Of a DNA stretch of 35,628 nt, positions 15,926 to 35,419 are shown piece after piece. The DNA lies in NCBI GenBank assembly GCA_002050035.1, contig MVCR01000007.1, positions 1 to 35,628 on the forward strand. The letters run 5' to 3'. This stretch comes from Planctomycetales bacterium 4484_113. Its GTDB lineage: Bacteria; 4484-113. Position 1 is the first letter of the stretch. Each line of letters starts with the position of its first letter. Position numbers and translations under genes: made by a program. The notes below the pieces were generated by a model that made no database searches, was not told the origin of the DNA, and was given only the letters and a program-made list of their open reading frames with translations.

Positions 15926-17905
15926 ATGAACTTGCCGAAAAGGGTAACCATCATAATGATACTGGGAGGCGTGGCTCTGCTGGCGGCAGGAGCGTGCGGC
16001 AGCAGCAAGTCGAGTCTGCCCCCGCCTCCTGCCCCATCTCCGAACGTCACTGGCTCCCTTGCACAGACGCTTGATGAGCTTTCTGCACTGCCCACACCGG
16101 CAGGCGTTGACGACGCCCTGTTCGCACGGCTCAAGCAGGCTCTTGCCGAAGCGCTCATCGCGCGGCGGGCAAGAGCCGCTTCTATGCTGCCAACGGGGCC
16201 CGCCAACTCAGTTGACAGCCTGGACTCGACCAACACTTCCGCTGACGAAGTCGTCCTGGAATGGCAGGGGAAGAATATCGGTGATTACAGCATGGACGGC
16301 ATCGTCAACATATCAGACATCACACCACTGGCGGCTCACTTCAATGAGGAAGTCGCGTCAGCAGCGCATCCGGATACTGCCGCCTGGATCGACGGCAATG
16401 GCGACGGAGTCATCAACATCTCTGACATTACGCCGCTAGCAGCGAACTTCGGAAACTCGCTATCAGGCTATGTAGTGCTCCACGCGGAAACGGCAGGAGT
16501 AAATCCACCCACCGATGAGGATTACACCCCCTTTGGCGATACTGAGACCAATCCGGTGGTCGCCCTTCCGCCGGTTCATCCCGGTCAGCCGCCGCAATAT
16601 CGGTACACCGCTTCAGGGCTGGACACGGCGAAGATTCATTACTTCAGGGTAGCGCCGGTAAATGATGTGGACAGCGGCTGGGGTGAGGTTTCTTCTGTTG
16701 AGATTGTTCCTCCGGGTAGCCTTTTCAACCTCTTTGTCACCATTCTCTGGCCACGCGATGGTCAGACAGTCGGAGACGAGGTTCCGGTGCTCGTAGCCTG
16801 GCCAATGGCACGGGATGATATCGACCATGTAACCTACGATGTTGACGGCACTCTCTTTGATACGGAGAACGATGAACCCTACATCACCGAGTGGGATACC
16901 GGTGCACTCAGCGAGGGTGAGCATACGCTGCACGCGGTAATCACGACCGAATCCGACGAGACCGCGGAGGACTCAGTTACGGTTACGGTGCAGCATGGAC
17001 ACGAGCCAGCGGCACCCGACCCCACTGCGCCGGGACCGTATCAAGCTGGCAAGACCACCATTGATATCCCGCCAAACCCGGGAGTGCCCTTTGCGTTGCC
17101 GATGCTGGGAAGCATCCTTTACTTCCCCTCCGATGATGGCGAGAGTATCAGTGCCGACAAGCCGTTTCCGGCGGTTCTGATAGCCCGCGCTGAGGGTGTA
17201 GCGGTGGATGAGTATGATTACCTCGCGCGTCGACTGGCGAGCCACGGCTATGTTGTGCTGATTCCGAACTTCGCCCAGCAGGCGCTGCTTCCCATTCCCG
17301 GAGCCAAGATTCCTCTGGACAAGCGAGGTGCCGATCTCAACTGGGCGGCGATGTTCTTCTTTGCCACCAGTATGATGCCTGATCAAGGTTTCTATGAATG
17401 GGCGCTTCCCATGATTGCCGCGGTGGGTCATGGAACCGGATTCGCGGCAGCGGTAGCTGGGGACACCGATCCTGAGGAGACGGGAACCTTCCGGGGCATC
17501 ATTGCGCTGGCGCCCCGCGACAGCTTCTTTGGCGCTCCCTATGCGCTTGATGCGGTGCCAACGCTGCTACCTGATACGCCACTCGTGATGCTTGCCGCGG
17601 AGAATGATGGCATTAGTGAAGCCGGTCATAACTTCGACGCCTTCTACCAAACCAGCGCCGGAATCACGGTTGGGATTAGCATACTCGGCGGCAACTTCTC
17701 AGCCTTCACCGATTCGCTGGACATTGATGGCGATGGTTCCCTGGAGATCGACCGCGAGGAACAGCACGACGTGGTCGTGACTTACACCACAGCGGCGATG
17801 GGCATCATACTCAAGGGGATGGAAAACGCCTACATGGACTATGTCGTCGGCGATTATGCCCAGAACGACATCCGCACGGAGTGGCAGGCGAAGAACATAG
17901 ACTGA
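15926..17905 (+). CDS. Secreted/lipoprotein with dockerin-like Ca-binding repeats and a degenerate alpha/beta-hydrolase domain
   Basis: N-terminal hydrophobic segment with lipobox-like LAAGAC; paired DYSMDGIVNISDITPLAAHF / DGNGDGVINISDITPLAANF repeats; C-terminal region with hydrolase-like FPAVLIARAEG..DYLARRLASHGYVVLIPNF; GGAGG RBS. Confidence 0.75.
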   Translation: MNLPKRVTIIMILGGVALLAAGACGSSKSSLPPPPAPSPNVTGSLAQTLDELSALPTPAGVDDALFARLKQALAEALIARRARAASMLPTGPANSVDSLDSTNTSADEVVLEWQGKNIGDYSMDGIVNISDITPLAAHFNEEVASAAHPDTAAWIDGNGDGVINISDITPLAANFGNSLSGYVVLHAETAGVNPPTDEDYTPFGDTETNPVVALPPVHPGQPPQYRYTASGLDTAKIHYFRVAPVNDVDSGWGEVSSVEIVPPGSLFNLFVTILWPRDGQTVGDEVPVLVAWPMARDDIDHVTYDVDGTLFDTENDEPYITEWDTGALSEGEHTLHAVITTESDETAEDSVTVTVQHGHEPAAPDPTAPGPYQAGKTTIDIPPNPGVPFALPMLGSILYFPSDDGESISADKPFPAVLIARAEGVAVDEYDYLARRLASHGYVVLIPNFAQQALLPIPGAKIPLDKRGADLNWAAMFFFATSMMPDQGFYEWALPMIAAVGHGTGFAAAVAGDTDPEETGTFRGIIALAPRDSFFGAPYALDAVPTLLPDTPLVMLAAENDGISEAGHNFDAFYQTSAGITVGISILGGNFSAFTDSLDIDGDGSLEIDREEQHDVVVTYTTAAMGIILKGMENAYMDYVVGDYAQNDIRTEWQAKNID

Positions 17906-18044: not shown

Positions 18045-19991
18045 GTGGTGTATCAGGAACTGGCAAACCGGATCGCCAGGGCGCTGAGCGATGCGCTCAC
18101 CGGGCTCGGCGTAAGTGGGGAAGCAGGTATCTTCGAGGATCGCACGCTTGCCGGCTTCCGCGATGCCACGACCGACAAAGAAGCGCCTCCAGTGTGGGGG
18201 AAGGGAATCCAGTTGATTGCGCCTCCGCGCGACTGGGGGATTACCTGCCTGATCGCGCCGGAAGTGGCATCGCACCAAATGGTGGACCAGCTCGTAGAAC
18301 TCCAGCAGAAGCTGGGGAAGAAAAAGGCGAAGAGACAGTTCGCCAAACTGGTGAATCCGCGGGCGGCTGAGCTGGCTAAGGAACTCACAGCTAGGGTTGA
18401 CCGCGCAGCATTGCCGGAGTTCTCACGCATCGAAGCCGAGGGAATCTACATCAACTTCTACTTCGATCCTCGTGTGATGTGCGAGCGCGTGCTCGCGGAA
18501 GTCCTGCGAGAGGGCGAGCGCTACGGTGCGGGCAGTCGGAAGAGCGAGCGCGTGATGATTGAATTCTCGCAGCCGAATACACACAAGCAGTTCCACATCG
18601 GGCATCTGCGCAATGTGCTCATCGGCAGCGCACTGGCGAATCTCTACACCTTCGCTGGCTACCCCGTAGTGCGCGCGAACTACTACGGTGACCACGGGAT
18701 CCACGTGGCAAAGGCGTTGTGGGGGTTCAAGGAGCTTCACGAAGCGAAGCTGCCAGCAGGGGAGGATGCGCTCAGCTTCCTCGGGCGCGTTTACGCAGAG
18801 GTGGAACGCAAACTGGCTTCGCTGGAGGGGACAGAGAACCTGGCTGCGCTCGAGGCGCGACATCTGCAGGTGTTGGCGGCTCTCGACGACGCATCGAGCG
18901 ATTACTACGCACTCTGGCAAGAGACGCGGCAGTGGTGCATTGACAGTTTCCACTCCATCTATGAGGAGCTGGGAGTGCAATTCGACACGGAGTTCTTTGA
19001 ATCCGAAGTGCAGGCGGAAGCGCAGCAAGTGGTGGCGGAACTTCTCGCCAAGCGCATCGCCCAGCGGGAGACTCAAGGGGACTATGCCGGAACGGTCTTC
19101 GTGGACTTCGCAGAGCTTTCAGCACCTGAGCTGGGTAAGATGGTGCTTCAGCGCTCCGACGGCACTACGCTTTATCAGACCAAAGAGCTGGTGCTCGCCA
19201 GGCGCAAGTTCACCGGCACTTTCAGGAGGGCAGCGAGCGATGACACCGGCGGCCCCATTGACACCTCCCTCTACGTCGTCGGCAGCGAGCAGAAGCTCTA
19301 CTTCAAACAGATATTCAAGATCCTTGAAGCGTGGGGCTTCCCCCAGGCACACCGATGCCATCACATCTCTTATGAGCTGGTTCAGCTTGGTGGCGGCAAG
19401 ATGAGCAGCCGAGAGGGCACCACCGTTGCCTACCGCGACTTTGTGAACGAAGCTATCGCGCGGGCACGCAAACTGACTGCCGACCGAGGCATCACTCAGG
19501 ACACAGAGGGGATCGCACATCAGGTGGCGCTCGGAGCCATCAAGTACGCCTTCCTTAAAGTGGATCCGAGCAAGACTATCGTTTTCGATTGGGATCAGGC
19601 ATTCTCGTTTGATGGCAATGCCGGGCCGTACCTTCAGTATGCCTTTGCCAGGGCACAGAAGCTCATCGCGGATTTCGACCCACCCATAAGCGAGACGACC
19701 ATCATTCCCGACAGCTACCAGCCGGAGCCTCAAGAAGCTGAACTGTGTCGAGTCATAGCGGATTTCCCTGAACGCAGTAGGATGGCACTGGCGCAGTCGG
19801 CTCCCAGCCTGGTCGCTAACTACCTCTACGAGCTAACTCGGGCGTTCACCACTTTCTACGACACCTGCCCGGTTCTGCGCGCTGAGGAGCCGGTTCGCAC
19901 TTTCAGACGCTCCCTCGTGTTCGCATTTGTACTTGTGCTAACCTTGGGAGGACGGAAGCTGCTGGGTCTCGACCTTCCGTCTGAGATGTAA
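18045..19991 (+). CDS. argS: Arginyl-tRNA synthetase
   Basis: QPNTHKQFHIGHLRNVLIG (HIGH motif), GGGKMSSREGTTVAYRDF, C-terminal DALR-like domain. Confidence 0.96.
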   Translation: MVYQELANRIARALSDALTGLGVSGEAGIFEDRTLAGFRDATTDKEAPPVWGKGIQLIAPPRDWGITCLIAPEVASHQMVDQLVELQQKLGKKKAKRQFAKLVNPRAAELAKELTARVDRAALPEFSRIEAEGIYINFYFDPRVMCERVLAEVLREGERYGAGSRKSERVMIEFSQPNTHKQFHIGHLRNVLIGSALANLYTFAGYPVVRANYYGDHGIHVAKALWGFKELHEAKLPAGEDALSFLGRVYAEVERKLASLEGTENLAALEARHLQVLAALDDASSDYYALWQETRQWCIDSFHSIYEELGVQFDTEFFESEVQAEAQQVVAELLAKRIAQRETQGDYAGTVFVDFAELSAPELGKMVLQRSDGTTLYQTKELVLARRKFTGTFRRAASDDTGGPIDTSLYVVGSEQKLYFKQIFKILEAWGFPQAHRCHHISYELVQLGGGKMSSREGTTVAYRDFVNEAIARARKLTADRGITQDTEGIAHQVALGAIKYAFLKVDPSKTIVFDWDQAFSFDGNAGPYLQYAFARAQKLIADFDPPISETTIIPDSYQPEPQEAELCRVIADFPERSRMALAQSAPSLVANYLYELTRAFTTFYDTCPVLRAEEPVRTFRRSLVFAFVLVLTLGGRKLLGLDLPSEM

Positions 19992-21754
19992 TGATGACAC
20001 GCACCGGACGCAGCTTCAGTATCAAGCGCCTCGCGCGCGCCCTGCAGGGATTCTCATTACCCCGCAACGACCCTCGGCTTGTCATTAACCACCACTTGCT
20101 GGATGTAGCTCCGATACTGGACCGCGGACCAGAGGCTGTTGAGGCTGCTTACGAGAGCAATCCACTGATTCTATTCAGTCTGCTGGAGGTAAGCCGCTTC
20201 GCGTCTCTTTTCTCAGGGGAGCTTATAGAAGAACGGCGATTCGTGCAGCTCTTCCGCCGCCGACCGCCAGTGAGCACGTTCCTTCACTTTCTCCACCCGG
20301 AGCCGCAGCTCGAACACTACGGAACATCCGGCATTTTCATCTCGCAGGCTGAAGAACCATCCGAGATCGTGAGTTTCCTTCACAACTTGCTCCGGTACGC
20401 CGAGATATTCTTCCTGTGCGAGCCGCGCGACATCTTCAGCCTGTCAAGCCTGCTGCGCTCGCATCTCCTCGCAGCCGTCGTGGTCAATGACGAGCCGGAT
20501 GAGTTTGACCTTCATCTTGTGCGAGCGCTGCACCATCTCAATATACCTCTATTCTCACAGGTAGATCTCGGCTCCTATTACAACTACATACCGGTGCAGG
20601 GCATCGACGACCTCTTCGACAAGCTCCGCCGTCTTCGTCCTACTCTGGGCACGCATCGGCTGCCTGAGACCAAGCGCGAAAGCGCGAAGAGTGTTGGCAT
20701 CCCCGAGCGCCACGAGTATGGAGGAACCTATCTTTCCTTCTACTGCGTACGTGCCATGGGAGGCATCGACGGCGTAGAAGTCCGAGGCAAGCCAACAGAG
20801 GATGTCGGACTGATCGTTGACCTGGGCGATACCGATGTCGATATCACACTGACGGCGTATATCGAGGACGAGCTATACTTACTCTTCAAGCACCATCAGT
20901 GGCTGCACTTTGAGCGCGGGGAGTTCTTCAAGCTCACCGTGCGCGGGCCTGACCGCCCCGCAGAAGAGCTGGGCCGCGCAATCTACGACCAGCTCAAGCA
21001 CCAGTTCTCGCTGCAGCAGGTTTCGGTGAAGCTGATATTCGATGCGCTCCGATTGCAGACATTGAAACCAACGATCGCTGCCTACCAGGAGGAGCGCCGG
21101 CAGGCTCTGGACAGGCGCAGCGACTTCGACGCGCCATTCTTCGCCTGCACCTACTGCCAGCGGTACTCTCGCAATGGATTCTGCCTAATCAGTGTCAACC
21201 ACCCCCCCCAATGCGAACTCTCTTACGACGCCATCCGCGCAACGGCGCTCTTCACCGATTCCACCGAGATGTTCTCTATCAAGAAAGGTGAGTTGCTCGA
21301 CCGCTCGAACATGCGATTCACCGGCACCGACAAGTTCGCTCGCATTCTCTCCCAGGGCCGCATTCGCGAGGTCGGGCTGCAATCGTTAAGCGTGTGGCCA
21401 CTTCCGGTGACGGCGTATGCGCAGAATATCGCGTATATGAAAGAGGAGTTGGGTGGCATCTTCATCATATCATCGGATTACGATGGCTACACCCCCGACC
21501 AGAAAACGTTTTGGGAACTGCTGCGCAAAGGAGTGGGGAGGCAGGTTCCAGGGATCATTGGAGTCTCTGATGCGCATATTCGTTCACCGGAGTTCCTTGC
21601 GGGCGACGGCGGTATCAGCCGTGTCGTCTGGATGCCTTCGGCACTCAAGAAACGAGTAGGGCTGCAGAAGGTGCTGCATATCGCCACCGAGCGAGACTGT
21701 TCGAATATGATGTCGCTCAAGAGTTACTTGCGCGAGAGGGGGTTCAGGTTTTGA
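19991..21754 (+). CDS. Acetyl-CoA synthase (AcsB/CdhC)-like protein lacking the Ni-binding CGC motif
   Basis: CTYCQRYSRNGFCLISVNHPPQC (CX2CX8CX9C) matches the ACS [4Fe-4S] cysteine pattern; C-terminal IIGVSDAHIRSPEFLAGDGGISRVVWMPSALKKRV matches the ACS C-terminal signature; upstream GLIVDLGD... region also alignable. Confidence 0.8.
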   Translation: MMTRTGRSFSIKRLARALQGFSLPRNDPRLVINHHLLDVAPILDRGPEAVEAAYESNPLILFSLLEVSRFASLFSGELIEERRFVQLFRRRPPVSTFLHFLHPEPQLEHYGTSGIFISQAEEPSEIVSFLHNLLRYAEIFFLCEPRDIFSLSSLLRSHLLAAVVVNDEPDEFDLHLVRALHHLNIPLFSQVDLGSYYNYIPVQGIDDLFDKLRRLRPTLGTHRLPETKRESAKSVGIPERHEYGGTYLSFYCVRAMGGIDGVEVRGKPTEDVGLIVDLGDTDVDITLTAYIEDELYLLFKHHQWLHFERGEFFKLTVRGPDRPAEELGRAIYDQLKHQFSLQQVSVKLIFDALRLQTLKPTIAAYQEERRQALDRRSDFDAPFFACTYCQRYSRNGFCLISVNHPPQCELSYDAIRATALFTDSTEMFSIKKGELLDRSNMRFTGTDKFARILSQGRIREVGLQSLSVWPLPVTAYAQNIAYMKEELGGIFIISSDYDGYTPDQKTFWELLRKGVGRQVPGIIGVSDAHIRSPEFLAGDGGISRVVWMPSALKKRVGLQKVLHIATERDCSNMMSLKSYLRERGFRF

Positions 21755-22206
21755 GTAAGTTCGCCAAAGTACTGCGTGAGACCAATCTGGAATTCACTAC
21801 CGAATCAGGTGAAGATGGCCTGGAAATCTTCGTGGTTCAGGGAAACGATGACTTCGCCGAGTTCCTCGCCCTAGTGTTCCCGACCACGGAAGGAACCCCG
21901 TTCCTACGTCTGATCTTTTTCCTCGACCGCATCCATCCTGAGAATCCCTTCGCTCAGTACGAGAGGCTTCTGGAGCTCAATCGGGAAGCCTGGATGGGTG
22001 CCTATGCGGTGGACCCGGAGACTTCAGCAGTGGTTTACGTGTTTAACTTCCCCCTGGAGGAGTTTGATACTTCGGCACTTCTAGTGACACAGGAAACCTT
22101 CCGGCTGTCGCGACAGCTCTACGAGGATGCGATGCGGGAACCCGAGCTGGGGAGGATCGCGCCATCACATTCGGATGCGCCCTCTCAAAATGAAGGCGGC
22201 GAGTAG
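21751..22206 (+). CDS. Small YbjN/secretion-chaperone-fold-like protein
   Basis: 151 aa; start overlaps the preceding stop by 4 nt (TTGA); pattern GLEIFVVQGNDDFAEFLALVFPT..LLELNREAWMGAYAVDPETSAVVYVFNFPLE resembles YbjN-type proteins. Confidence 0.5.
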   Translation: MSKFAKVLRETNLEFTTESGEDGLEIFVVQGNDDFAEFLALVFPTTEGTPFLRLIFFLDRIHPENPFAQYERLLELNREAWMGAYAVDPETSAVVYVFNFPLEEFDTSALLVTQETFRLSRQLYEDAMREPELGRIAPSHSDAPSQNEGGE

Positions 22207-22209
22207 ACC

Positions 22210-23016
22210 ATGATGAAACATCTGCCAACGGAGCCATTGCAAGTACTGGGGTTGCAGATCGGATGTTTCGCTCCCAGCATCCGAGACAATCTAACCTGTG
22301 TACTGAAGAAGCTAGAGCAAGTCCCACCCCGGCAAGCGGACCTGATTGTCCTTCCTGAGCTCATCAACACTTACTACCACTACGAGATCATGACAGAGCT
22401 GAGCGAGGGAGAAGAAGAACGGTTCCTCGACCCTATTCGCCAGATTGCCGCTGAGAAGACCGCCTACATCCTCGCAGGTTCTCTGGCTGTGAGACAGGCA
22501 GGCAAGCTCTACAATCGGAGTTTCCTGCTTTCTCCGCAAGGCGAGACCGTCACCACCTATGACAAGATGCATCTCATCGCACTTCTAGGTGAAACGGATC
22601 ACTTCACTCCGGGCAGGCAGACAGCAACAGCAGAAATCAAGGGCTGGAAGCTGGGTATCGCCATTTGCTTCGATCTCAGATTCGCCGAGCTGTTCCTGAA
22701 CTACGCTCTCGATGGCTGCCACCTAGTAGTCCTCCCGGCGTGTTGGCCGCATGAGCGTGCCAACCACTGGCGGAGTCTCCATTTGGCGAGGGCGCAGGAA
22801 TGTCAGGCTTTCTTCCTGGGCGTGAATGCCGGCGGTTTCAACGGCAAAGGTAAGACCTACGGCGGGAGTATCCTCGCAACCCCCGATTCGGTGCCGCAGG
22901 TTGAACTGCCGTGGGGAAGCGAGGGAACAATCGCAACTACGATTACTTCGGCAGGGATTGCGCGGCAGAAGCAGCTTTACGATCTGATGGTGGGCCGCAA
23001 GCGGCCGCCTCTCTAG
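22210..23016 (+). CDS. Carbon-nitrogen hydrolase (nitrilase superfamily, omega-amidase-like)
   Basis: Catalytic triad contexts VLPELINTYY (Glu), YDKMHLI (Lys), LGIAICFDLRF (Cys). Confidence 0.88.
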   Translation: MMKHLPTEPLQVLGLQIGCFAPSIRDNLTCVLKKLEQVPPRQADLIVLPELINTYYHYEIMTELSEGEEERFLDPIRQIAAEKTAYILAGSLAVRQAGKLYNRSFLLSPQGETVTTYDKMHLIALLGETDHFTPGRQTATAEIKGWKLGIAICFDLRFAELFLNYALDGCHLVVLPACWPHERANHWRSLHLARAQECQAFFLGVNAGGFNGKGKTYGGSILATPDSVPQVELPWGSEGTIATTITSAGIARQKQLYDLMVGRKRPPL

Positions 23017-31860: not shown

Positions 31861-33360
31861 ATGCCCTTTCCCTATGCCGACCTTCGGGAGTTCATTTCGG
31901 CGCTGGAAGCGGATGGCGAGCTCACGCGGGTGGCCGAGCCGGTTGACCCGGTGCTGGAAGTCACCGAGCTGACCGACCGGATGAGCAAGTCGCGCGCGGC
32001 GAAGGTCCCCGACGGGACGCCCGATTTCCTCGCGAGCGGCGGCTCGACGCTGCTGTTCGAGCATCCGAAGGACTCCGAGATTCCCATCGCCATCAACCTC
32101 TTCGGCTCGCTCACGCGAATCAGCAAGGCGCTGGGAGTGGCGCATCCTAACGAGATTGCCGACCGCATCGGCGAGCTGCTGGATTTGAAGCCGCCAAGAG
32201 GGCTGCGGGAGCAGCTCGCCTTCCTGCCGAAGTTGATGGAGCTTGCGAAATTCGTGCCCCGCGAGGTCAAACGTGCGCCCTGCCAGGAAATCGTGCTCAC
32301 CGGCGACGAGGTTGAGCTGGGGAGATTCCCCATTCTGAAGTGCTGGCCGGAGGACGGCGGGCGCTTCATCACTTTCCCGCTGGTGGTGACGCACGATCCC
32401 GAAAGCGGCACGCGCAATCTCGGCATCTACCGGATGCAGGTTTTTTCGCGCAATGAGACCGGCATGCACTGGCACATCCACAAGGACGGCGCGCGGCACT
32501 TCGAGAAGGCGAAGACGCGGGGGGAGAAGCTGCCGGTGGCGGTGGCGATTGGCGCCGACCCGGTGACCTGCTACGCTGCGAGCGCTCCGCTTCCAGGCGG
32601 GATTGACGAGTTACTCTTCGCTGGCTTCATTCGCGGGAAGCCGGTGGAAGTGGTGAAGTGCAAGAGCAATGAGCTGTTCGTGCCTGCGAGCGCGGAGATA
32701 GTGTTGGAAGGATACGTCGACCCGAAGGAGCCGCTGCGCAAGGAGGGGCCGTTCGGCGACCATACCGGCTACTACAGCGGCGTGGACGAGTATCCGACTT
32801 TTCATATCGAGACCATCACGCATCGGCGGGAGCCTATCTATCACGCCACCATCGTCGGCAAGCCGCCGCAGGAGGACTACTTCCTCGGGTATGCGACCAC
32901 GCGGATATTCCTGCCGCTGATGAAGCTGGTGCTGCCGGAGCTTAAAGACATCTGCTGTCCGCCGGAGGGGGTGTTTCACAACTGCGTGATTGCCTCTATC
33001 GAGAAGCGGTATCCGGCGCAGGCGCGGCGGGTGATGAGCGGGCTGTGGGGCATGGGGCAGATGAGTTTCGCCAAGGTGATTGTGGTCGTGGACGCCGATG
33101 TGCCGGTGGAGGATTTGAGCGAGGTCGCGTTTCAGGCGTTGGCGAATGTGGATCCGCGGCGGGATATGATGTTCTTTGAGGGGCCGACGGATGTCCTCGA
33201 CCACGCGGCGCCGCAGCCGTTTTTCGGGAGCAAAGTGGGAATCGACGCCACCCGCAAGATTGTCGGGGAGTGCGACCGCGAATGGCCCGCCGAAATCGTG
33301 ATGACCGAGGATGTGAAGCGAAAGATGGACGAGATATGGGGGAGGATATCTGGGGTATAA
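31861..33360 (+). CDS. ubiD: UbiD-family decarboxylase
   Basis: DLREFISALEADGELTRV, MHWHIHKDGARHF, LPVAVAIGADPVTCYAASAPLP, EGPFGDHTGYYS. Confidence 0.92.
   Translation: MPFPYADLREFISALEADGELTRVAEPVDPVLEVTELTDRMSKSRAAKVPDGTPDFLASGGSTLLFEHPKDSEIPIAINLFGSLTRISKALGVAHPNEIADRIGELLDLKPPRGLREQLAFLPKLMELAKFVPREVKRAPCQEIVLTGDEVELGRFPILKCWPEDGGRFITFPLVVTHDPESGTRNLGIYRMQVFSRNETGMHWHIHKDGARHFEKAKTRGEKLPVAVAIGADPVTCYAASAPLPGGIDELLFAGFIRGKPVEVVKCKSNELFVPASAEIVLEGYVDPKEPLRKEGPFGDHTGYYSGVDEYPTFHIETITHRREPIYHATIVGKPPQEDYFLGYATTRIFLPLMKLVLPELKDICCPPEGVFHNCVIASIEKRYPAQARRVMSGLWGMGQMSFAKVIVVVDADVPVEDLSEVAFQALANVDPRRDMMFFEGPTDVLDHAAPQPFFGSKVGIDATRKIVGECDREWPAEIVMTEDVKRKMDEIWGRISGV
33300..33343 (+). repeat. ubiD 3'-end direct repeat, copy 1
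   Basis: gatgaccgaggatgtgaagcgaaagatggacgagatatggggga; 40/44 identical to 33889-33932. Confidence 0.95.
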
Positions 33361-33617
33361 TGTCAGTGATGGTTCCATCGAGATTCACTTTGCTGCTCTC
33401 GCGCGACGAGGAAGAGCCCGAGAGCTTCAATGTCTCAGTCAAGGAGCTTCCCGGCTGCTACACCCACGGCAAGACCGTGGAGGAGTGCATCGCGCGCTCG
33501 ATTGAGGCAATTCAGGGCTTCCTCGAGTCCCAGGCGCAGGATGGGGAAATCGACCTTCCAGCAGAGCTCTCGTTTGATGAGATTGAAGTGGGGCTGACGA
33601 TTCCCACGACTCCCTAG
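33360..33617 (+). CDS. hicB: HicB-family antitoxin-like protein
   Basis: FTLLLSRDEEEPESFNVSVKELPGCYTHGKTVEECIARSIEAIQGFLESQAQDGEIDLP; start ATG 33360 (or 33369). Confidence 0.85.
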   Translation: MSVMVPSRFTLLLSRDEEEPESFNVSVKELPGCYTHGKTVEECIARSIEAIQGFLESQAQDGEIDLPAELSFDEIEVGLTIPTTP

Positions 33618-33963: not shown

Positions 33964-35217
33964 ATGTCTGAAGGGCCAGGCAAGACCGTCTATATTCTTG
34001 GAGCAGGTGCGTCTTCTGGTTCGCGGCTAATACCAAAGAAAGACTATCGCCTCGATGAGCTTAGTGGCGCTGTTCCTGTCAACGCCAGAGTGCCATTGAC
34101 GCACGAGTTCTTTGACGGCTCCGAAATCCCATACGGTGAACTGCGAGATTACCTTCTCAAGAACTTCGGTGAGAAGGAGTGGCACACACGCAGTGGCCAA
34201 AGAGGCGTGATGGAGGAGTTTGTTAAGAAGTGGCATGAGAGAAGCCGGCAGAACGCAGAGTTTAGCGATGCAGATATTGAGCTAGTATTCACCCGAATTG
34301 AGACTGAGCTATTCAGAAGCCCGCGGAAGGACGCCAGGCTGGAGCGAGCGAGATACTGGATAACCGAGCGTATTGTGAGAAGACTTAGGCAAGCGTGCGA
34401 GGGGAACTACTCCCTCGATTATATGAAGCTGTGCCAATTGCTCAAACCAGGTGACGTTATTGTCACCTTCAATTGGGACGACCTCATTGAGAAAGCCCTC
34501 GATTGGAGAAGCCAGGAGTGGTACCACGAATCTATCGTAGCCGTCTCCCAACATCCGGCCTGGACTGGGACGCGGGACGGTGCTAGAGTCCTTAGGCTTG
34601 ACAACTTCCAGAAGGGACCTTTCCCTCTCAAACACGCATTGCTCTTGAAACTACATGGTTCAGTAACCTGGTTTGCGTGTCCAACAACTGATTGTCCTGA
34701 ACACAATCAGGTGTATATGATACAGAAGCTTTCGCGATCCAAAGACCCAGTGACTGGGCAAGAGGTTTCTGGAGACCAAGTCCCCGAACCTTACTACGAG
34801 GACGAGGGCCTGTTGTCCCTGTACTGCAATACGTGTGGGAAGCAGATGGTGCGTGTGATCGTCCCTCCAATCACATTCAAGCCTTACGAAGACTATCCAG
34901 CCGTCAGGGTCAGTTGGTGGCTTGCCTACAGAGCGCTGCAACATGCGGACAGGATAGTGGCGATTGGCTATAGCTTCCGGGAAAGCGACGCGTACAGTGA
35001 GTGGCTTCTTGCCTCTGCTGTGAGAAATAGACCTCCAGAGAAAGAGCCGCCATTGATTAAACTAGTCTGTCCGAGCAATCCACCGCTAATGCGAGTTAAG
35101 GACATTGTTCGCGACTGGAGCGAGGTCAGTGCGATTAAGAAGCCCTTCTCCGACTGGGTTGATGACCAGTTCGAACACAGACAGGTCGAGAATGACGCGA
35201 CCGACGACAATGGGTGA
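33964..35217 (+). CDS. SIR2-like domain protein with putative Zn ribbon
   Basis: VYILGAGASSG, VIVTFNWDDLIEKAL, LLLKLHGSVTWF, CPTTDC...CNTC, RIVAIGYSFRESDAYSEWLL; visibly lower GC than neighbouring genes. Confidence 0.8.
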   Translation: MSEGPGKTVYILGAGASSGSRLIPKKDYRLDELSGAVPVNARVPLTHEFFDGSEIPYGELRDYLLKNFGEKEWHTRSGQRGVMEEFVKKWHERSRQNAEFSDADIELVFTRIETELFRSPRKDARLERARYWITERIVRRLRQACEGNYSLDYMKLCQLLKPGDVIVTFNWDDLIEKALDWRSQEWYHESIVAVSQHPAWTGTRDGARVLRLDNFQKGPFPLKHALLLKLHGSVTWFACPTTDCPEHNQVYMIQKLSRSKDPVTGQEVSGDQVPEPYYEDEGLLSLYCNTCGKQMVRVIVPPITFKPYEDYPAVRVSWWLAYRALQHADRIVAIGYSFRESDAYSEWLLASAVRNRPPEKEPPLIKLVCPSNPPLMRVKDIVRDWSEVSAIKKPFSDWVDDQFEHRQVENDATDDNG

Positions 35218-35419
35218 ATGCCTAGTTATCACATACTGGAACGAGGAGGACCGGGCGTTCATCGCCGAGGTGCCGGAGCTTCCCGGGTGCGCCGCCGACG
35301 GGGCGACCTATCAGGAGGCGCTCGCGAACGTCGAGGTGGTGATTCAGGAATGGACCGAGACCGCCAAGGAACTGGGTCGTCCGATCCCGGAAGCGAAGGG
35401 ACGCGCCGTCTCCGTCTAG
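35210..35419 (+). CDS. HicB-like protein, overlapping the SIR2-like gene
   Basis: MGECLVITYWNEEDRAFIAEVPELPGCAADGATYQEALANVEVVIQEWTETAKELGRPIPEAKG; ATG 35210 lies inside the SIR2-like gene end (8-nt overlap). Confidence 0.88.
   Translation: MGECLVITYWNEEDRAFIAEVPELPGCAADGATYQEALANVEVVIQEWTETAKELGRPIPEAKGRAVSV

Follow-up and report, generated by a model that had tools for sequence, protein, structure and literature searches.

A conserved acetyl-CoA synthase homologue lacking the nickel-ligating cysteines in candidate phylum UBP7

What can an acetyl-CoA synthase (ACS) be doing when the cysteines that should hold its nickel are gone and no gene for its usual partners lies nearby? The question is raised by an open reading frame (ORF) at 19991–21754 (+) in contig MVCR01000007.1 of Planctomycetales bacterium 4484_113 (assembly GCA_002050035.1), the 35,628 nucleotides analysed being referred to here as the window. 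ACS, reputedly among the oldest enzymes, is usually seen as a one-purpose, nickel-dependent and oxygen-sensitive catalyst, and its gene serves as a marker of the Wood–Ljungdahl pathway. An earlier description made from the letters of the window alone (the sequence-only reading) had taken the ORF product for a diverged ACS paralogue, probably endowed with an Fe–S cluster and devoid of the catalytic dinuclear nickel site. The window protein is considered below together with its relatives in ten genomes of the same class (candidate phylum UBP7), which yielded a family of nine sequences, all from metagenome-assembled genomes (MAGs); these are 77–96% complete, the genome of the window being itself a MAG of 77% completeness.

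An ACS fold without nickel ligands

The ORF is uninterrupted and its translation comprises 587 amino acids, the sole Pfam match of which is ACS_CODH_B_C (PF19436; E 4.3e-28, 99 bits against a cut-off of 25), corresponding to the A3 domain that bears the A-cluster. The NCBIfam models of ACS match as well, with E values of 1e-34 to 1e-39 (2.1e-34 for TIGR00316/cdhC), all scores lying far under the curated equivalog cut-offs (119 of 356 bits for TIGR00316, 120 of 809 for NF007078 and 117 of 800 for NF040764). The PF19436 bit scores form separate groups: most bacterial ACS reach 366–424, one CdhC-type protein 280, two selenocysteine variants 195–225 and the family lacking the nickel site 78–133. 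Among solved structures, CdhC of Methanosarcina thermophila (9c0s_E, E 1.4e-27) comes closest in sequence, ahead of those of bacterial ACS, and HHalign comparison of the profile of the nine members with that of intact ACS gave probability 100 and E 8.3e-43 over 461 columns, the match extending from the A1 domain through A3. The AlphaFold model (mean predicted local distance difference test score, pLDDT, 81.7) is matched by Foldseek to bacterial ACS 7nyp_A with E 2.6e-32 over 701 alignment columns and a template-modelling (TM) score of 0.68 of the query, to CdhC with a TM score of 0.76 of the target, and also to the isolated A1-domain structures 6yua and 9g03. Since an A1 domain is missing from archaeal CdhC (PMC11474084, PMC11321310), the A1-like domain of the model makes this three-domain A1-A2-A3 architecture one of the bacterial type. 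The product is a genuine ACS homologue, and the resemblance that had been recognized by eye is thus borne out by both profile and structure.

The four predicted [4Fe-4S] ligands, C386, C389, C398 and C408, are contained in CTYCQRYSRNGFCLISVNHPPQC (residues 386–408, encoded at 21146–21214, +) with the spacing CX2CX8CX9C, placed exactly as originally proposed; they are kept in 8/9 family members and in all 21 true ACS with which the family was compared, and would allow the protein to bind a [4Fe-4S] cluster. The situation of the nickel site is different: the bases at 21410–21418 (+) are acggcgtat and encode T474-A475-Y476, which HHalign sets opposite the Cys-Gly-Cys (CGC) of intact ACS without a gap, precisely the substitution that the sequence-only reading had called. 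In ACS this motif binds the distal nickel by way of its two thiolates and two backbone amides, and the same thiolates bind the proximal nickel, which is the catalytic one (PMC8910529, PMC12289521), so that replacement of both cysteines removes both nickel sites.

The CGC is lost in all nine family members and kept in 21/21 ACS checked outside the class. In its place are found TAY, TAY, TAY, SAE, SAE, TAI, TAL, TAI and SLC, the last belonging to the most diverged member; because these residues vary, no alternative metal ligand is conserved at 474–476, the only recurring features being the P470-x-P472 framework and a small residue in position 474. A sequencing error or frameshift as the cause of the loss is rejected, the same loss being present in nine assemblies, i.e., in eight beside that of the window. 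Two candidate replacement ligands were also discarded: a conserved His (HPHP), which is absent from the window protein and its closest relatives, and the C-terminal C570, which several true ACS carry. The C-terminal FLAGDGGISRVVWM signature common with ACS (21593–21634, +) is retained, as had been pointed out, with RSPEFLAGDGGISRVVWMP present in the protein.

A new A2 hairpin and a member without Fe–S cysteines

If the nickel site is gone, which part of the protein is being conserved? Across the family 43 positions are invariant at about 30% identity, and their densest cluster (7 in 15, permutation p 0.005) is a hairpin of the A2 domain, R254-x2-G-G-I-D-G-x3-R265-G266 (20750–20788, +), in which R254, G257, G258, D260, G261, R265 and G266 are identical in 9/9 members without being conserved in true ACS. 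The A2 stretch H-x-[GA]QRD-x2-W-x-R, invariant or nearly so in ACS, has on the other hand been lost from the family; this stretch presumably contains or neighbours the tryptophan implicated in coenzyme A (CoA) binding in Moorella ACS.

In the member L009 (genome G008, L021:16-1734) Ser, His, Gly and His replace the four Fe–S cysteines. Its Fe–S loop is only 22% identical to that of the other members, compared with 45% between the other groups, whereas over A2 and A3 as a whole the identity falls only from about 40% to 32%. Because L009 has lost the cysteines whereas its A2 motif and the chaperone-like gene located downstream (see below) persist, the conserved function probably sits in the A2 hairpin and in protein contacts and not in the old A-cluster, the cluster being common but dispensable. 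The original proposal of Fe–S ligands without a dinuclear nickel site therefore stands for most members, although the Fe–S part does not extend to L009 and the cluster is probably not essential.

Distribution, selection and descent

The ACS-like gene is found in 9/10 genomes of the class as an open frame across four family-level groups. The tenth genome (G006) contains neither this gene nor an arginyl-tRNA synthetase gene (argS) over cut-off, a coincidence that fits a single missing stretch of assembly. The peptide of the A2 motif, run against 85,462 species genomes, matched seven loci, which correspond by contig and position to known members of the class; among the loci read in 385 sampled genomes there was no further CGC-less ACS, although a CGC-less homologue devoid of the A2 motif may exist elsewhere. 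Viral spread is rejected, no relative having been found in the viral contigs searched.

The gene is under purifying selection: for the closest pair (G001/G002) dN/dS, the ratio of nonsynonymous to synonymous substitution rates, is 0.056 with dS already high at 1.2, the more distant pairs being saturated and for this reason not used. A pseudogene is rejected on the strength of this value and because the frame is open in all nine genomes. In a maximum-likelihood tree the CGC-less homologues form one clade (support 100/100) with a stem of 2.18 changes per site, lying outside the clade of bacterial ACS (100/98), and the branching within the family follows the genome groups. The long stem may be misplaced by long-branch effects, and a split predating the diversification of bacterial ACS is not claimed.

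Absence of the partners of the carbonyl branch

In agreement with the sequence-only reading, the window contains no gene for a carbon monoxide dehydrogenase (CODH), a corrinoid protein or a methyltransferase, and the remainder of its assembly, 77% complete, has neither PF03063 (CODH) nor PF03599 (CdhD or corrinoid iron–sulfur protein, CFeSP) nor a second PF19436 gene. In the ten class genomes, complete to 77–96%, PF03599 is absent from all and PF03063 from nine, the single match of the latter being a 567-amino-acid frame in G004 that is taken, by its size, to be a hybrid-cluster protein. Since none of the ten holds a second PF19436 gene, a paralogue standing beside a true ACS is rejected; the word "paralogue" was thus misleading for what is the only ACS homologue of these genomes, with no detectable nickel-CODH or CFeSP, whereas the descent from ACS that it implied is confirmed. 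A haem-copper oxidase subunit I is encoded in 6/10 genomes (none was shown in the other four, the window's included), so that some of its members, at least, appear capable of using oxygen.

The operon

Beyond the single protein first described, not only is the family class-wide but its genes have a conserved context that had gone unnoticed. The presumed operon begins with argS (18045–19991, +; PF00750 8.8e-50, PF05746), the only argS above cut-off in the genome of the window, whose stop codon overlaps the start of the ACS-like gene (TAATG, 19989–19993). In 8/9 genomes argS lies directly upstream of the ACS-like gene and several of the junctions overlap; in G008 it lies on a different contig, and the gene after it, of PAS type, is unrelated.

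The third gene (21751–22206, +) starts with a TTG that overlaps the stop of the ACS-like gene (TTGA, 21751–21754). Its product, of 151 amino acids, matches PF10722 with 23.0 bits (cut-off 22), and its AlphaFold2 model (pLDDT 87.6) is matched by Foldseek to DR_1245 (4h5b, E 2e-4) and to chaperones of the type III secretion system (T3SS), which assigns it, as far as a model allows, to the class I T3SS-chaperone or YbjN fold. The gene for a related protein of 130–185 amino acids lies directly downstream of the ACS-like gene in all nine genomes, with overlapping codons in several. Because these two genes stay together in G008 while argS is elsewhere, the chaperone-like gene is a firmer partner than argS. 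A chaperone role has been argued for the YbjN/TY-Chap superfamily (PMC9503650); the fold does not imply secretion, and the client of the protein is proposed from gene order only.

A fourth gene, for a carbon–nitrogen hydrolase of the nitrilase superfamily (22210–23016, +; PF00795 1e-35), is part of the operon only in families f1 and f3, its orthologues adjoining 5/9 loci. Apart from argS and the chaperone-like gene, no constant metabolic gene occurs near the ACS-like gene in the nine loci. The three operon proteins have no PADLOC match and a defence system is rejected.

Divergent from argS in six class genomes, and not in the window, is the gene of a protein of ~750 amino acids that combines a zinc finger of DnaG type with a DnaB/KaiC-like ATPase domain (L015:5920-8184, −; orthologues in L016, L019, L020, L022 and L059).

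Possible functions

The ACS-like protein cannot make acetyl-CoA, since neither nickel-holding cysteine is left and convincing genes for a CO source or a methyl-corrinoid donor are missing. What, then, could be the reason for its conservation? The best reading, to which an even chance may be given, is that of a nickel-free, ACS-derived Fe–S regulator or scaffold. The protein would be the single-copy, nickel-free descendant of a three-domain, bacterial-type ACS, conserved in UBP7 and kept after, or without, the rest of the Wood–Ljungdahl carbonyl branch. In its A3 domain a [4Fe-4S] cluster of the ordinary four-Cys kind would have a structural part or respond to redox state or oxygen, and its A2 domain, with the new invariant R-x2-GG[IV]DG-x3-RG hairpin, would represent the working surface; the protein would act through protein contacts, in a regulatory rather than a catalytic role, and would be synthesized alongside, and remain associated with, the co-translated chaperone/YbjN-fold protein. 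This reading is preferred on three grounds, the possible loss of the cluster, the chaperone fold of the constant neighbour and the lack of a constant metabolic gene, and it starts from observed facts: the homology and the fold, the loss of the CGC, the absence of partner genes, the class-wide conservation, the purifying selection and the operon. Somewhat short of an even chance is the fuller version in which the regulator or scaffold is phylum-wide, has a dedicated chaperone-like partner, has had its function moved from the A-cluster to the new A2 site and serves in lineages of which several respire oxygen.

Several considerations weigh against this interpretation. Cluster binding, the complex and the regulation are all inferred; the invariant polar residues of A2 would also suit the active site of an enzyme; the proximity of argS may be no more than common synteny inside one class, argS being elsewhere in G008; and the family amounts to only nine sequences, from incomplete MAGs.

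The main rival, rather unlikely as it appears at present, is that the ACS scaffold has been turned to another reaction, the substrate being held by the invariant A2 residues R254, D260, R265, D277, T288, E292, D351 and R354 and the [4Fe-4S] cluster transferring electrons or acting as a Lewis acid. Such a new enzyme would account for the family-specific cluster of invariant polar residues and could be related to the nitrilase-superfamily gene at five of the loci; however, L009 keeps the rest of the protein without any Fe–S cysteine, so that cluster chemistry is not essential family-wide, the stretch of A2 that does not vary in ACS has been lost, and the only constant neighbours are argS and the chaperone-like gene.

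Clearly less probable is a factor linked to translation, in which the ACS-like protein and its chaperone-like partner would regulate or stabilise arginyl-tRNA synthetase according to the redox or iron state. The single-copy, directly upstream and translationally coupled argS of 8/9 genomes speaks for it, as does G006, where neither an argS over the cut-off nor the ACS-like gene was found, consistent with one missing stretch; yet in G008 argS stands alone on its other contig before the PAS-type gene, and the divergent DnaB-like gene upstream of argS is also conserved, so that the proximity of argS may reflect a gene order that was inherited.

A decaying, functionless remnant of ACS is very improbable, for although the loss of the catalytic metal ligands and the long stem could be so explained, the frame is open over four family-level groups, the closest pair has the low dN/dS given above and 43 positions are invariant in spite of the low overall identity. 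Still less credible is an acetyl-CoA synthase that works with nickel ligands of an unusual kind; the retained Fe–S ligands and ACS fold can be adduced for it, but it is at odds with the TAY/SAE/TAI/TAL/SLC series that offers no common metal ligand, with the lack of a convincing CODH and of a corrinoid protein and with the haem-copper oxidase of six genomes.

Relation to known systems

Whatever its function, the family shares with bacterial AcsB (7nyp, 7zkj, 1oao) the domain order and fold, the spacing of the [4Fe-4S] ligands and the DGG..R.VWM signature, and several of its members also have the RxxxxF pattern found in the alcove region of A1. It differs in having no CGC, a shorter and very diverged A1, no HxxQRDxxWxR in A2, no C-terminal HPAL segment, the new GG[IV]DG hairpin and neither CODH nor CFeSP as partners, the identity by structure being about 17%. 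Archaeal CdhC, the beta subunit of acetyl-CoA decarbonylase/synthase (9c0s_E), gives the best sequence score of the solved structures and has in common with the family the A2-A3 core and the IATE....SLK..L tail; unlike the UBP7 protein it has the CGC and no A1. The hybrid Cdh/Acs of bacteria from hyperalkaline springs (PMC9751293) also have an unusual bacterial ACS make-up, but form complete CODH/ACS complexes, whereas the UBP7 protein is alone. The partner protein is predicted from its model and Foldseek to share the fold of YbjN/TY-Chap1 and class I T3SS chaperones (DR_1245 4h5b, AmyR 5fr7, CesT), at low identity (about 15%); a position beside an ACS-like gene is not reported for that family in the papers found. 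The papers searched, on ACS pseudoenzymes and on UBP7 among other subjects, yielded no description of a nickel-free ACS family, which is not proof that there is none.

For the regulator or scaffold favoured here, as for any other function, the existence of a conserved nickel-free family implies that the ACS fold is reusable, and its nine natural variants reveal which parts survive without nickel. A four-Cys site without CGC constitutes a natural control for the [4Fe-4S] half of the A-cluster acting alone, and in the annotation of metagenomes a PF19436 match by itself is no proof of acetogenesis or CO2 fixation.

Other ACS loci and further features of the window

Two CdhC-type ACS genes, L061 (G095:C157:14574-15248, −) and L060 (G235:C49:7744-8433, −), each contain two in-frame TGA codons located exactly at the nickel-site cysteines (TNUGUFE and TSUGUFE, i.e., U-G-U for C-G-C), the Fe–S cysteines being intact. 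When TGA is read as selenocysteine (Sec) the products rise above the TIGR00316 cut-off (388 and 443 bits versus 356); both genomes have a tRNA-Sec gene and, nearby, a cdhA-type CODH gene, and a cdhB match adjoins the G095 gene. RNA folding 3′ of the TGA codons gave stems, candidates at most for a selenocysteine insertion sequence (SECIS). Judging from these sequences, the two proteins probably carry Sec-Gly-Sec A-clusters; a 2026 review of the prokaryotic selenoproteome makes no mention of ACS beta subunits. G216 has two ACS copies at the edges of different contigs (C54 and C33), of which the copy read (L056) has an intact CGC, and at G310:C417:6130-6273 (−) there is a short PF19436-like match (positions 194–242, 32 bits) within a 560-amino-acid frame that has no Fe–S part.

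Elsewhere in the window, a protein encoded at 33964–35217 and flanked by the ORFs 33270–33617 and 35105–35419 gives a weak SIR2-like match (PF13289, 20 bits, cut-off 24.5), and these two small ORFs resemble, by eye only, HicB antitoxins. At 15926–17905 a large, secreted-looking protein is encoded with a dockerin-like stretch (weak, just under cut-off) and a bacterial Ig domain, after which the C-terminus appears, by eye, esterase-like.

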